A DNA stretch of 64,000 bases from Maritalea mobilis (GTDB lineage: Bacteria > Pseudomonadota > Alphaproteobacteria > Rhodobacterales > Rhodobacteraceae): positions 558,001 to 622,000 of the forward strand of contig NZ_JAHVKE010000001.1 of assembly GCF_019800885.1 (NCBI RefSeq). The letters run 5' to 3'. The translations under genes were made by a program, and so were the position numbers. Each line of letters starts with the position of its first letter. Position 1 is the stretch's first letter. Below, piece after piece: positions 26,048-38,264 of the stretch. The notes beneath the pieces are model-generated. The model was not told the DNA's origin. It made no database searches and worked only from the letters and a program-made list of their open reading frames with translations.

Positions 26048-26069
26048 GGTCTCCTCCCTCAGGATGTGG

Positions 26070-26095
26070 AAAGGGCGGCCTCCGGGCCGCCCTTT
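26070..26095. terminator. bidirectional terminator between ald and the binding-protein gene
   Basis: AAAGGGCGGCC (26070-26080), loop TCCG, GGCCGCCCTTT (26085-26095). The A/T ends give a T-run on both strands, as suits two convergent genes. Confidence 0.85.
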
Positions 26096-26113
26096 CCTTA
26101 CTGCGTGGCTGAA

Positions 26114-32719: not shown

Positions 32720-33954
32720 GCGCGACCACCGACCCGATGGTGCAGGACGAGCGCCGCCGCCTTGGCCGTGTCGAGTTCATCGCCATGATGGGGACGATCT
32801 TTGCGACGGTGGCCTTTTCCATCGACGCCATGCTGCCCGCCCTGCCCGAGATCGCGGAAGACCTGACGCCCGAGGCGGTGAACCGCGCGCAGTTGATCCT
32901 GACGAGTTTCGTTCTCGGCATGGGGCTGGGCACGCTGGTGGTGGGTCCGCTTTCGGACGCGTTGGGCCGCAAGACGGTGATCCTGTTGGGGGCGTTGCTG
33001 TACCTGGCGGGGGCCTTGCTGGCCCTTGTGGCACCAAGCCTCGAATTGATCCTGCTGGCCCGCGTGATCCAGGGGCTCGGCGCCTCCGGCCCCCGCGTCG
33101 TGTCGATCGCGATGATCCGCGATCTCTATTCGGGGCGCGCCATGGCGCAGATCGTGTCCTACGCGATGATGATCTTTACGCTTTTCCCGGCGGTCGCGCC
33201 GCTGATCGGGGCGGCGATCATCGCGGGCTTTGGATGGCGGTCGATCTTCGTGGCCTTCATGGTCTTCTCGGTGGTTTCGGTGTCCTGGGTGATGCTGCGC
33301 CAGCCCGAGACCCTGCCCCGCGAGGCGCGCCGCAAGCTCAGCCTTGGCCAGACATGGCGGGATATGCGCGAGGCGCTGGCGAACCGGCAGATGCAACTGT
33401 CGATCCTCGTGCAGACCTTCGTGTTCGGGGCGTTGTTCGGCACGCTCAGCTCGGTCCAACAGGTGTTTGACCTCACCTATGGTCGGGGGGAGAGTTTTCC
33501 CTTCTGGTTCGCGTTTATCGCGCTTTTGTCCGCCCCGGCCGCGCCGACCAATGCGCGGTTGGTGATTCGGCTTGGCATGCGCCCGATGATCCGCACCGCG
33601 CTGTGGGTTTCGGCGACGTGTTCCTTCGCCGCGGCCATCGTGATCGGCGTGCTGAACCTCGGAGCGGCGGAGTTCTGGATCTACTTCGTGTGGACCGTCA
33701 GCATTTTCGCGTCAGCGGCCTTCACCATCGGCAACCTGAATGCGCTGGCGTTGGAGCCGTTGGGCCATATCGCCGGCACCGCCTCGTCCCTGATGGGGGC
33801 GTTGGCCACCGTCGGCGGTGCATTGGCCGGGGCCGCGCTGGGACAGCTCTACAACGGCACGGCCGTGCCGTTGGCCATTGGCGCAGGCGTGATGCTGACC
33901 TTGGGGGCAGTCGTCATGCGCAACATGCCGCGGGAATTGCCGGGCGGCCTGTAA
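32716..33954 (+). CDS. MFS efflux transporter (Bcr/CflA family)
   Basis: The 412-residue protein has about twelve membrane helices. The loop GPLSDALGRKTVILLGALLY carries the MFS signature between helices 2 and 3, and DAMLPALPEIAEDL in helix 1 is typical of the Bcr/CflA drug-efflux branch. It would export a small molecule using the proton gradient. The ATG overlaps the stop of the DsbA-like gene. The gene ends 21 bases from the convergent DUF2306 gene, with no separate terminator visible. Confidence 0.88.
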   Translation: MSATTDPMVQDERRRLGRVEFIAMMGTIFATVAFSIDAMLPALPEIAEDLTPEAVNRAQLILTSFVLGMGLGTLVVGPLSDALGRKTVILLGALLYLAGALLALVAPSLELILLARVIQGLGASGPRVVSIAMIRDLYSGRAMAQIVSYAMMIFTLFPAVAPLIGAAIIAGFGWRSIFVAFMVFSVVSVSWVMLRQPETLPREARRKLSLGQTWRDMREALANRQMQLSILVQTFVFGALFGTLSSVQQVFDLTYGRGESFPFWFAFIALLSAPAAPTNARLVIRLGMRPMIRTALWVSATCSFAAAIVIGVLNLGAAEFWIYFVWTVSIFASAAFTIGNLNALALEPLGHIAGTASSLMGALATVGGALAGAALGQLYNGTAVPLAIGAGVMLTLGAVVMRNMPRELPGGL

Positions 33955-34760: not shown

Positions 34761-37700
34761 TCAGCTTTTCTTGGGCGGCGTGGCATATTGGGCAAGATCG
34801 CGCGCAATGGCGAAGGCGCCCTTGATCTTGTCGGCCTCTTTCACCCAGTCGCGGCGCACGACGATCTTGTTATCCTTGACCTTGGCAAGCCCCTTTTGGT
34901 TCTGGATGAAATCCACCAGCCCCTGCGGGTTCGGAAACTTGTTGTCGTGGAATTGCAGGGTCGCGCCCTTCGGCCCGGCATCAAGCTTGGCGATATGAGC
35001 GCGCTTGCACATGGCCTTGATGCGCACCACCAGAAGCAGCGTGTTGACCTCGCGCGGGAGCTTGCCGAAGCGGTCGATCAACTCGGCTGCGAAGCCCTCC
35101 AGATCGACCTTGGTCTCCAACTGGCTGAGGCGACGATAGAGGCCAAGCCGCACATCGAGATCCGGCACGTAATCCTCGGGGATCAGGACCGGCACGCCAA
35201 GGTTGATCTGTGGCGACCATTGGCCATCGTCGCCCGGAAGCCCCTCGGCCTCGCCCGAGCGGATCTTGGAAATCGCCTCTTCCAGCATGGATTGATACAG
35301 CTCGAACCCGACCTCGCGGACGTGGCCGGATTGCTCCTCGCCCACGATATTGCCCGCACCGCGAATATCGAGATCCTGCGACGCGATGGTGAAACCCGCG
35401 CCAAGGCTGTCGAGGCTGCCCAGAACGCGCAGGCGTTTCTCGGCCGATTGGGTCAGCTTGGCGCGCGGCTTGGTGGTCAGGTAGGCATAGGCGCGGGTCT
35501 TGGCGCGGCCCACGCGGCCCCGGATCTGGTAGAGCTGCGCCAGCCCGAACATGTCGGCGCGGTGGATGACCATGGTGTTGGCGGTCGGAATGTCGATGCC
35601 GGATTCCACGATGGTGGTGGCCAGAAGCACGTCGTACTTGCCGTCGTAAAACGCGTTCATGCGGTCGTCGAGCTCGCCCGCCGCCATCTGGCCATGCGCG
35701 GTGACAAAGCTGACCTCGGGCACCTGGTCGGTCAGGAATTCCTCGATCTCGCGCAGGTCCTCGATGCGGGGCACCACGTAGAAGGATTGCCCGCCGCGAT
35801 AATGCTCGCGCAACAGCGCCTCGCGGATCGTCACCGCGTCAAACTCGCTGACATAGGTGCGGATGGCGAGGCGGTCGACCGGCGGCGTGCCGATCAGGCT
35901 GAGGTCGCGCACGCCCGACAACGACATCTGTAGCGTGCGCGGAATCGGCGTGGCCGAGAGCGTCAGGACGTGCACGTCCGAGCGCATCTCCTTCAGCCGT
36001 TCCTTGTGGGTCACGCCAAAGCGCTGTTCCTCGTCGATCACCAGCAGGCCGAGGTTCTTGAACCGGATGTTCTTGGCCAGCAGCGCATGGGTGCCGATGA
36101 CGATATCGACCGAGCCATCGGCCATGCCCTTCTTGGTCTCGCTGGCCTCTTTCTGGCTGACGAAACGCGAAAGTTGCCGCACGTTGATCGGGAAGCCCCG
36201 GAAACGGTCGCGGAAGGTCTTGGCGTGCTGGCGGGCGAGCAGCGTGGTCGGCGCGATCACCGCCACTTGCAGCCCCTGGGCCGCGGCGAGGAACGCCGCG
36301 CGCATCGCCACCTCGGTCTTGCCGAAGCCCACATCGCCCACCACCAGGCGGTCCATCGGACGCCCGCGTTCGAGATCCTCGATCACGTCCGCGATCGCGC
36401 TGAGCTGATCGTCGGTCTCCTCGTACGGAAAGCGGGCGCAAAACGCCTCCCACATGTCGCCGGGCGGTTGCAGCATGGGGGCCGAGCGCAATTCCCGCTC
36501 GGCGGCGATGCGGATGAGCTTGTCCGCGATCTGGCGGATGCGTTCCTTGAGCCGGGCCTTTTTCGCCTGCCATGCCCCACCGCCCAGCTTGTCGAGCAGC
36601 CCTTCTTCATGGCCGTAGCGCGAGAGAAGCTCGATATTCTCCACCGGCAGGAACAAGCGATCACCACCGGCATATTCCAGCGCAAGGCATTCATGCGGCG
36701 CGCCCATCGCGGTGATGGTTTCAAGTCCGTTATAGCGGCCAACCCCGTGATCGACATGAACGACCAGGTCGCCGGGCGACAGCGTTTGCGCCTCGGTCAG
36801 ATAGTTCTCGGCCTTGCGCGTCTTGCGGCGTGGACGGATCAACCGGTCGCCCAACACGTCCTGTTCCGAGATGACGGTCAGGCCCGCCCCGGTGAAACCC
36901 TGTTCCAGCGGCCAGACGGCCAAATGCACACCGCCGGTGGAGGAGCCAGAAAAACTCGAGTTTTTCTGGCCGGAAAACTCGAGTTTTCCGCCCCCTATGT
37001 CACGGGCATCGTTGATCTCGACGGTATCGGTGATGTCTTGGTCTTCAAGCAGGCCTTTGAGGCGCTCGCGCGCGCCCTCGGACCAACTGGCGATGACTAC
37101 GGCGCCATCTTCACGTTTTGAGCGAACATGATCTGCCAGCGCACCGAAAAGGCTGATATTTTCGTTCTGCCGCTCGGGCGCAAAATCGCGACCCGCCCGT
37201 CCGCCTGCGTCGATGACGCCGGGGCCCGGCGCTTGCGACAGCGGCGACAGCTGCACCACACGATGCCCGGCAATGGCCGCCCGCCACGCGTCATCCGAAA
37301 GGTAGAGCTGATCGGGCGGCACCGGTTTATAGACCGTGTCCAGCCGCCCCTTCTGGGTCAGCGCCGTTTTACGGGTGTCATACTGGTCGGCGATCGACTC
37401 CCACCGCGCCAGCCGTTGAGGGGTCGATTGATCGTCCAGCGTGACGGCGGCATCCGGCAGGTAGTCGAAAAGTGTTTCCAGCCGCTCGTGGAAGAACGGC
37501 AACCAATGCTCGACGCCCTGATGCTTGCGGCCCGCGCTGACCGCCTCGTACAGCGGATCGTCCGTGCCGGCGGCGCCGAACTCGATCCGGTAATTCTGCC
37601 GAAACCGCGTGATGGAGGCCTCGTCGAGGATCACCTCGGAGACCGGGGCAAGCTCGATCCGCTCTAGCTTTTCGGTGGTGCGCTGGCTGACCGGATCGAA

Positions 37701-38264
37701 GCGGCGGGCGCCGTCAAGCGTGTCCCCGAAGAGGTCGAGGCGCACCGGCGCGTCCTCTCCCGGGGGCCAGACGTCGATGATGCCGCCGCGCACGGCATAG
37801 TCGCCGGGCTCTGTCACCGTGGGGGCCTGGACGAAACCCATGCGCACGAAAAAGTCTTTCAGAGCCGCTTCGTCGATCCGTCCGCCGACGGTCGCTGCGA
37901 AGGCCGAGTTCCGCAAAAGGTCGCGCGGCGGGATATACTGCATCGCCGCGTTGAGCGTCGTGAGCAGGATGAAGTCGCCCAGGATCGCCCCCGCCGCCAG
38001 CGCCGCAAGCGTTGCCATGCGCTGCGCCGAGATGTCGGGATTGGGGGACACTCGGTCATATGGCAGGCAATCCCAGCCGGGAAAGCGCAGAACGGGGACC
38101 GTCGGGTCGAAAAAGGCGAGCGCGGTCGCCATCGCCTCGGCGCGCTTGTCATCGCGGGCGATGTGCAGCACGGGGCCGTCGCGCCGCGCCAATTCGCGCA
38201 GCAGAAGCGTGGCGTCGAAGCCCTCGGGCGCGCCGCCGGCAAGGATGTGATCAGGCTGACTCAT
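34761..38264 (-). CDS. mfd: transcription-repair coupling factor Mfd, with palindromic insertion
   Basis: Mfd removes RNA polymerase stalled at DNA damage and recruits UvrA. The 1167-residue protein has the UvrB-like N-terminal region, the RNA-polymerase-interaction domain, an SF2 translocase with GDVGFGKTEVA (about 645-655) and DEEQRFG (about 743-749), and the C-terminal domain. Length is normal for the family. At residues about 425-441 (GGKLEFSGQKNSSFSGSS) the sequence appears to be an insertion absent from related Mfd proteins as I know them; the underlying DNA (36945-36990) is two back-to-back perfect palindromes. The frame is kept open through it. The first part, before the insertion, is otherwise ordinary. 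Confidence 0.95.
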   Translation of the reverse strand: MSQPDHILAGGAPEGFDATLLLRELARRDGPVLHIARDDKRAEAMATALAFFDPTVPVLRFPGWDCLPYDRVSPNPDISAQRMATLAALAAGAILGDFILLTTLNAAMQYIPPRDLLRNSAFAATVGGRIDEAALKDFFVRMGFVQAPTVTEPGDYAVRGGIIDVWPPGEDAPVRLDLFGDTLDGARRFDPVSQRTTEKLERIELAPVSEVILDEASITRFRQNYRIEFGAAGTDDPLYEAVSAGRKHQGVEHWLPFFHERLETLFDYLPDAAVTLDDQSTPQRLARWESIADQYDTRKTALTQKGRLDTVYKPVPPDQLYLSDDAWRAAIAGHRVVQLSPLSQAPGPGVIDAGGRAGRDFAPERQNENISLFGALADHVRSKREDGAVVIASWSEGARERLKGLLEDQDITDTVEINDARDIGGGKLEFSGQKNSSFSGSSTGGVHLAVWPLEQGFTGAGLTVISEQDVLGDRLIRPRRKTRKAENYLTEAQTLSPGDLVVHVDHGVGRYNGLETITAMGAPHECLALEYAGGDRLFLPVENIELLSRYGHEEGLLDKLGGGAWQAKKARLKERIRQIADKLIRIAAERELRSAPMLQPPGDMWEAFCARFPYEETDDQLSAIADVIEDLERGRPMDRLVVGDVGFGKTEVAMRAAFLAAAQGLQVAVIAPTTLLARQHAKTFRDRFRGFPINVRQLSRFVSQKEASETKKGMADGSVDIVIGTHALLAKNIRFKNLGLLVIDEEQRFGVTHKERLKEMRSDVHVLTLSATPIPRTLQMSLSGVRDLSLIGTPPVDRLAIRTYVSEFDAVTIREALLREHYRGGQSFYVVPRIEDLREIEEFLTDQVPEVSFVTAHGQMAAGELDDRMNAFYDGKYDVLLATTIVESGIDIPTANTMVIHRADMFGLAQLYQIRGRVGRAKTRAYAYLTTKPRAKLTQSAEKRLRVLGSLDSLGAGFTIASQDLDIRGAGNIVGEEQSGHVREVGFELYQSMLEEAISKIRSGEAEGLPGDDGQWSPQINLGVPVLIPEDYVPDLDVRLGLYRRLSQLETKVDLEGFAAELIDRFGKLPREVNTLLLVVRIKAMCKRAHIAKLDAGPKGATLQFHDNKFPNPQGLVDFIQNQKGLAKVKDNKIVVRRDWVKEADKIKGAFAIARDLAQYATPPKKS
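36945..36990. repeat. two adjacent perfect palindromes inside mfd
   Basis: A 26-base perfect palindrome (36945-36970) abuts a 20-base perfect palindrome (36971-36990). Both share the core AAAACTCGAGTTTT. Their DNA encodes an 18-residue Gly/Ser-rich stretch in Mfd. The low-G/C core is unlike the surrounding codons, which suggests a small mobile or repetitive palindromic element inserted in frame. No other copy of the core occurs in the window. Confidence 0.8.

Follow-up and report, generated by a model that had tools for sequence, protein, structure and literature searches.

Why should a gene for a DNA repair factor carry two perfect palindromes, back to back and within its reading frame? The question arises from the window, a stretch of 64,000 nucleotides from Maritalea mobilis (genome G000), in which an open reading frame at 34761-38264 on the minus strand hosts such an insert. 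This frame is mfd, encoding the transcription-repair coupling factor of 1167 aa; its product has the Pfam domains TRCF, CarD_TRCF_RID, UvrB_inter, DEAD and Helicase_C and matches the PDB Mfd chains 6x26 and 2eyq (E about 5e-243). In the reading order of mfd, the first hairpin is a 20-bp perfect palindrome, CGGAAAACTCGAGTTTTCCG (36971-36990, minus strand, codons 425-432), and the second a 26-bp perfect palindrome, GCCAGAAAAACTCGAGTTTTTCTGGC (36945-36970, minus strand, codons 432-440), with centres 23 nt apart. Each is its own reverse complement, and together they fill codons 425-440 (GGKLEFSGQKNSSFSG) with no stop codon. A first-pass annotation had described a 26-base and a 20-base perfect palindrome side by side, and both are there; it was also right that the stretch is in frame and stop-free, but its count of about 18 residues (425-441) has to be corrected to about 16. 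The A/T-richness that it remarked on is borne out by a G+C content of 48% in 36945-36990 against 65% in the window. The core AAAACTCGAGTTTT, with up to two mismatches allowed, occurs twice in the window (shuffled mean 0.01), and the RNA of 36935-37000 is predicted to fold into two hairpins with an outer G/C closing helix (z -5.5). The whole double-hairpin array (36944-36994, minus strand) gives the best match listed for G000 to our covariance model of the double hairpin, R1, at 70.9 bits; it is itself one of the 39 doubles (alignment A2) from which R1 was built. The insert stands before the RID domain (residues 495-550), in a stretch that aligns poorly with Mfd chain 6x26, and may form a surface loop. 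Elsewhere in the window, a G+C-rich perfect palindrome of 22 bp, CAACGGCACGGCCGTGCCGTTG, lies at 33852-33873, outside the array family, and a perfect 13-bp inverted repeat with a 4-nt loop, GGAAAGGGCGGCC / GGCCGCCCTTTCC, at 26068-26097 is possibly a terminator.

Relative to outgroups, the palindromic stretch is an insertion. With 41 genomes giving a match, 30 Mfd loci were fetched, and as one is the window's own, 29 others were examined. Five of them carry the insert, intact or eroded, 23 are without it and one has an unrelated insert. Conservation of these residues thus does not extend to every close relative, in line with the insertion proposed by the first-pass annotation. Loci from further genera (n=24) account for all 23 without the insert and for the unrelated one (L052). 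The sister species G001, a congener, shares the first palindrome in perfect form; in the second, its centre is CCCGGG where G000 has CTCGAG, and one stem position is mismatched. At the same place, G003 has two other perfect palindromes, CCGGATTTGCCGGCAAATCCGG for the first and CGGAAAAGCCGGCTTTTCCG for the second, G002 shows the pair of G003 in a decayed state, and G004, of the same genus as G000, and G015 have an eroded insert only. Between G000 and G001, 1 of 32 stem positions differs in mfd compared with 22 of 91 in the flanks, figures that include coding constraint. An eroded insert at the same place in the sister genus g12 suggests that the insertion probably predates the split of the two genera; since then the copy would have decayed in certain species, while elsewhere its stems and centres changed. 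It is best read as an old, tolerated, in-frame passenger.

The palindromes belong to a dispersed family. The 16-mer GAAAACTCGAGTTTTC has 14 exact copies in the G000 genome and none in its reversed control, and a 14-mer version has 19, an abundance that answers the genome search proposed with the first-pass annotation. Other palindromes with different stems flank the 14 copies side by side, and identical cores recur at unrelated loci. Counting every perfect palindrome whose arms measure at least 10, there are 12 in 400 kb of G000 (1.2 expected) and 3 in 400 kb of G001 (1.0 expected), whose hairpins are more often imperfect at the centre. With at most 150 candidates scored per genome, R1 matches on both strands number at least 68 in G000, 57 in G001, 12 in G002, 57 in G003, 59 in G015 and 77 in G388, and at least one (E 0.03) in G004. 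The 68 matches on two strands correspond to an estimated 34 or so arrays in G000, 31 of which were examined. Across the family, at least 39 of 394 genomes and 38 of 393 genera, G000 and G003 included, have a match with E of 0.001 or less, a lower bound given that 15 candidates were scored per genome. In twenty regions around such matches, drawn from 12 of these genomes, the architecture is the same, whereas the stems and often the centres are different. The exact 18-mer is present in 44 named stretches, of which 34 belong to Roseicyclus, Roseibacterium or other members of the Rhodobacteraceae or Rhodobacterales, and R1 matches all 34; the remaining ten, from gut Bacteroidales, clostridia, Sutterella, Pseudomonas and Thermococcus, were left out of the R1 search, and an array scan found weak, unrelated pairs in only two of them.

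The first 14 arrays were seeded by a single 16-mer, and because the arrays behind R1 were selected as perfect palindromes, its counts of decayed arrays and of other types are too low. In a generic search for perfect hairpins in tandem, 800 kb of G000 yielded 13 (controls 0, 2 and 0; 8 at R1 sites) and 800 kb of G001 yielded 12 (controls 1, 2 and 4; 9 at R1 sites). From G002, 400 kb yielded 5 (controls 2, 0 and 2), of which three are in our judgement triple arrays that have TTGCAA centres and belong to a different type; 100 kb of G004 yielded none (controls 1, 0 and 0). That G004, a member of the same genus, is practically without arrays of the R1 type indicates that the element is dispensable.

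Most arrays consist of two to four non-identical perfect hairpins, with stems of about 7-10 bp around a central 4-5 nt, and span about 46-80 bp. Over 118 distinct arrays with 298 hairpins, the spacing is exactly 23 nt in 129 of 180 cases, and 2068 of 2086 stem cells are Watson-Crick pairs (6 G-U, 5 A-C, 7 other), a count from a detection that favours perfect stems. The palindrome runs through to the centre, the central 4 nt being self-complementary, in 219 of 274 even-centred hairpins; another 24 hairpins have odd centres. Each genome has its typical centres: CTCGAG in G000, GCCGGC and CTCGAG in G003, CGCGCG in G022 and TTGCAA in G002. Stem classes such as GGAAAAC and GTTTTCC are found in both orders, and the edges of 109 arrays are G-rich on the left and C-rich on the right. 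Neighbours within an array tend to differ, with one same-stem pair in 58 in G000 against 8.7 after shuffling (reached in 1 of 2000 shuffles), an avoidance that is weaker in G388 (3/38 vs 6.7) and R. persicicum (4/26 vs 7.3). RNA folds of four other arrays gave z from -2.3 to -5.1. Matching between loops of one array was considered and rejected, the loops of G000 matching less within arrays (15/58) than between them (1006/2643), and an outer closing helix found weak backing, with a helix of at least 6 in 11 of 117 arrays against 5.1 when right flanks were shuffled among arrays. At L173, L174 and L175 in G157 and at L168 and L169 in G022, two arrays lie within a few tens of nt of each other, and the odd centres of G157, TGCGA and TCGCA, are reverse complements of each other.

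The location of the arrays is as regular as their build. According to a gene caller that uses hexamers and was trained on 800 kb, the 31 arrays of G000 comprise 20 in co-directional gaps, 10 in convergent gaps, none in divergent gaps and one in a coding sequence, in a genome with 540 co-directional, 113 convergent and 113 divergent junctions. If all gene ends were equally likely, 8.9 of the 30 non-coding arrays would be convergent (226 of 766 stop ends, the 113 convergent junctions being counted twice). Of these 30, 25 begin no more than 15 nt from a stop codon, compared with 11% at random when a 43-nt block is put into gaps. For all groups together the figure is 87 of 112 arrays; the other 8 of 120 sites are two divergent ones (L239 and L087) and six called as coding. 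In some cases (L192, L226, L227) one array fills a convergent-stop gap entirely. The reading of the mfd palindromes as a small element within genes thus needs qualification, as coding copies are exceptions and the usual home is just behind a stop codon.

Orthologous sites reveal how the arrays evolve. In 800 kb each of G000 and G001 there are nine array sites, eight of them orthologous. The flank of site 65816 in G000 can be aligned on one side only, and site 3007555 of G001 is missing in G000, where about 50 bp lie between the aligned flanks instead of about 107. Over seven orthologous arrays with 16 hairpins, the two species differ at 5 of 256 stem positions (2.0%), 128 of 624 flank positions (20.5%), 17 of 64 central-four positions (27%) and 6 of 25 spacer positions. 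This count excludes site 729953, where the stem order differs between the two, and treats the G+C-rich first hairpin of site 412612 as flank; it is 5/224 for stems and 112/538 for flanks when site 412612 is left out, and much the same also without mfd. Stem differences lie far below those of the flanks and centres evolve about as fast as flanks, which indicates that stems, unlike centres, are strongly constrained. At greater distances, the stems found at a given gene end change as a whole; examples are the 59333 gene (G000, G001, G003 and G388) and the 425274 gene (G000, G001, G003 and G015), in each case behind the gene. Among the eight gene ends compared, those at 141649, 412612 and 729953 have arrays in G000 and G001 only, two have TTGCAA-type arrays of their own in G002, and none has an array in G004. 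At L114:12585-12612 (G000:C1:412585), the hairpin is G+C-rich and 28 bp long, whereas G001 has the A/T-rich GCGGAAAACacctGTTTTCCGC in its place; one unit may have been replaced by a different stem.

A second housekeeping gene has taken up such a copy. In G015, queG (TIGR00276) contains a 51-nt in-frame insert that is lacking in all 11 other genomes, with a few extra residues at the site in G002, G003 and G014. For one of its hairpins, queG and mfd use the same frame, giving GKLQFS in queG and GKLEFS in mfd, in a family whose copies are mostly non-coding. From its distribution, the queG copy is an insertion independent of that in mfd, and this supports the first-pass annotation's proposal of a mobile, tolerated palindromic element, the movement itself being inferred. 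As read in mfd and queG, the hairpins contain no stop codon, and a copy within a gene may persist as a short Gly/Ser/Lys-rich stretch if its length fits. The six sites called as coding are L123 and L215, both mfd, L153, which is queG, L167, where the array forms the 3' end of the pdxA reading frame in G303, and L278 and L279 (site 425274), whose coding labels are gene-caller errors.

REP and BIME elements share many of these properties, being hairpins of 20-40 bp, often paired, that lie near 3' ends and between convergent genes and are sometimes intragenic and in frame; the account in PMC3733652 places REPs at 3' ends and includes heterodimers and copies inside repair genes. All 30 non-coding G000 arrays have the REP location, downstream of genes between co-directional or convergent frames. 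Mfd agrees with the frequent presence of intragenic REPs in repair genes, whereas queG is not a repair gene and only 1 of 31 G000 arrays is intragenic. Proximity to stop codons is more pronounced here, most arrays lying within the 15 nt that 446 of 4072 E. coli REPs attain, as given in PMC12306157. The CGTC REPs, which PMC3733652 describes as typical of alphaproteobacteria and reported across all their orders, have stems of 8-9 bp, loops of 4-5 nt, A-T pairs in the first and second stem positions and no known transposase. Our arrays differ in that the foot pair in A2 is C-G or G-C in 71 of 78 stems and the next G-C in 77 of 78. The GTAG/CGTC tag is likewise wanting: of 120 array rows, 7 have a tag word no more than 6 nt from the edge, CGTC/GACG around single stems occurs in 51 of 298 hairpins, a chance level (shuffled 46), and GTAG/CTAC in 2 of 298 (shuffled 9.9). 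Whereas G-T pairs are frequent in REP stems, they are all but missing here, with the caveat of detection given above, and the arrays are further set apart by palindromes that are mostly perfect up to the centre, a fixed 23-nt pitch and two to four units. RAYT was rejected as the mobiliser, the transposase profile PF01797 matching none of 19 genomes and 5 of 14 controls, including E. coli and Caulobacter. Since both defining marks, tag and RAYT, were looked for and not found, we do not file the arrays as REPs. Phage carriage was rejected as well, the 18-mer occurring in no viral contig, and no target-site duplication was seen.

Three other kinds of known element invite comparison. Rickettsia palindromic elements (RPEs) resemble the mfd copy in being palindromic inserts that a conserved alphaproteobacterial gene carries in frame, but they measure about 105-150 bp, have terminal inverted repeats and form long stem-loops (PMC2229807, PMC10969869), whereas the arrays, 46 bp in mfd, consist of separate short hairpins and are usually found outside genes. 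RPEs also encode a conserved peptide, and for the arrays the related observation is the frame shared by GKLEFS and GKLQFS. The double-hairpin elements of mitochondria are nearest in shape; like the mitochondrial GC clusters, for which PMC4478555 describes mobility and merging or shuffling of units, they are short dispersed hairpin elements of organelle genomes, and the comparison made here is one of shape. Intrinsic (Rho-independent) terminators also place hairpins just after genes, but theirs are followed by a T tract, while the arrays have several A/T-rich stems and dispersed copies with shared cores; TTTT within 12 nt after the array occurs in none of 64 co-directional rows, and TTT in 5. 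Rfam gave no match in the window at gathering score, and, over five array loci at E of 1 or less, nothing at the arrays and one weak match away from them. Among the matches listed in open PubMed Central texts (titles and abstract starts), no description of such arrays in Rhodobacteraceae was found, and the word 'Rhodobacter' is absent from the main text of PMC3733652, whose figures or supplements may hold a Rhodobacterales entry. With that reservation, the arrays are seemingly an undescribed REP-like hairpin family of a new type.

Some further hairpins were observed in these genomes. Those at L191:15757 and L121:556 (G000:C1:135757 and 540556) resemble each other: both are tandem and rich in G+C, have a tcgat loop and follow AAATATGCA. 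At gathering score, Rfam matched nothing in L191 and, in L121, only a tRNA elsewhere. At L280 (G388:C1:1472900-1474100), direct repeats CGTCGCCagaGGCGACG and a GGGGGC..GCCCCC hairpin lie behind a gene that bears an array in G000, and a G+C-rich tandem hairpin ending in TCCGGGGCgctGCCCCGGAccccggagtt is common to G000:C1:154615 and G001:C1:2365237.

What, then, is the feature in mfd? We consider it probable that it is one copy of a short, non-autonomous, REP-like family that spreads to new sites and acts at mRNA 3' ends. New copies would arise at new sites through some enzyme and would mostly be retained 0-15 nt behind a stop codon. REPs near stop codons are reported to form a barrier to 3'-5' exonucleases. 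By analogy, an array at an mRNA 3' end would be such a barrier, and it may also act as a brake on the terminating ribosome, as REPs within 15 nt of the stop reduce translation (PMC12306157). REP-like behaviour as outlined in PMC3733652 and the closeness to stops discussed in PMC12306157 make a 3'-end RNA role with occasional spread the most likely reading. Some observations sit poorly with it. G-U pairs are no commoner than A-C pairs (6 vs 5 of 2086), which is not what a function in RNA alone predicts, and the mfd hairpins of G000 and G003 are perfect far from any stop codon, which a 3'-end function leaves unexplained. Against the reading also stand the missing T run, the lack of RAYT matches, of a target-site duplication and of viral contigs with the 18-mer, and the near absence of such arrays from G004. 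The lack of a G-U preference, the symmetric centres and the persistence in mfd therefore keep maintenance at the DNA level a candidate.

Such upkeep, independent of transcription, could come from a hairpin- or cruciform-recognising enzyme or from replication template switching that copies one arm to the other, stop-adjacent sites being merely harmless; it would keep palindromes perfect and turn over stem and centre together. Wobble or one-sided changes are indeed nearly absent, and the central 4 nt are mostly self-complementary where a hairpin loop needs no such symmetry. Palindrome-to-palindrome changes occur as well (CTCGAG/CCCGGG at mfd and 127073, CTATAG/CGCGCG at 141649), and the mfd hairpins are perfect in the array-bearing G000 and G003, with one mismatch in G001, and eroded in G002 and G004. 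However, several centres lost their symmetry between G000 and G001 (GCCGGC to GCCTGC, CTGCAG to CTGCCG, CTCGAG to CTCGCG, CCCGAG or CTTCAG), so perfecting is not general, and G015 is rich in arrays yet has an eroded mfd insert. Shared centres also owe something to common descent, the counted arrays were detected as palindromes in the first place, and the closeness to stops is too tight for mere tolerance. On balance we hold this alternative for rather doubtful. Its stronger form is a little more doubtful still: a lineage-specific process of the Rhodobacteraceae that makes and maintains perfect hairpin arrays in DNA wherever they are located, and that would account for the joint change of stem and centre, the genome-favoured centres, the differing neighbours, the 23-nt pitch and the decay where the process is lost (G004). 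If true, the arrays would represent a novel sort of repeat, templated by structure and either mobile or self-correcting.

It is similarly unlikely that the arrays are bidirectional transcription terminators evolved in place at gene ends. Conserved stems, arrays that occupy a whole convergent-stop gap and the terminator-like score of the first L192 hairpin with the T tract of the second would suit such a role, but a terminator scan found one site against 0.5 in shuffles, with none at mfd, and no T run follows the last hairpin. Moreover, identical cores at unrelated loci require copying, and copies inside mfd and queG cannot terminate those genes. A DNA-binding protein with dyad sites in a fixed 23-bp phase would explain why the spacing stays at 22-24 nt even where stem lengths differ (G002) and why centres are typical of G000, G003, G022 and G002. 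We nevertheless regard it as very improbable, because arm sequences vary freely while remaining symmetric, centres evolve at the speed of flanks, and some genomes have odd, non-palindromic centres such as those of G157. That the mfd palindromes are a chance local feature is scarcely conceivable; the dispersed 16-mer copies, set against the empty reversed control, refute it, together with the recurrence of the core and the common architecture of 118 arrays.

In summary, the family to which the mfd insert belongs is a seemingly unrecorded REP-like class, present in many genera of one bacterial family and lacking both tag and RAYT. The copies in mfd and queG are clean cases of in-frame capture by housekeeping genes. 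Orthologous sites with frozen stems and drifting centres would allow the maintenance of REPs at the level of DNA to be separated from that at the level of RNA.
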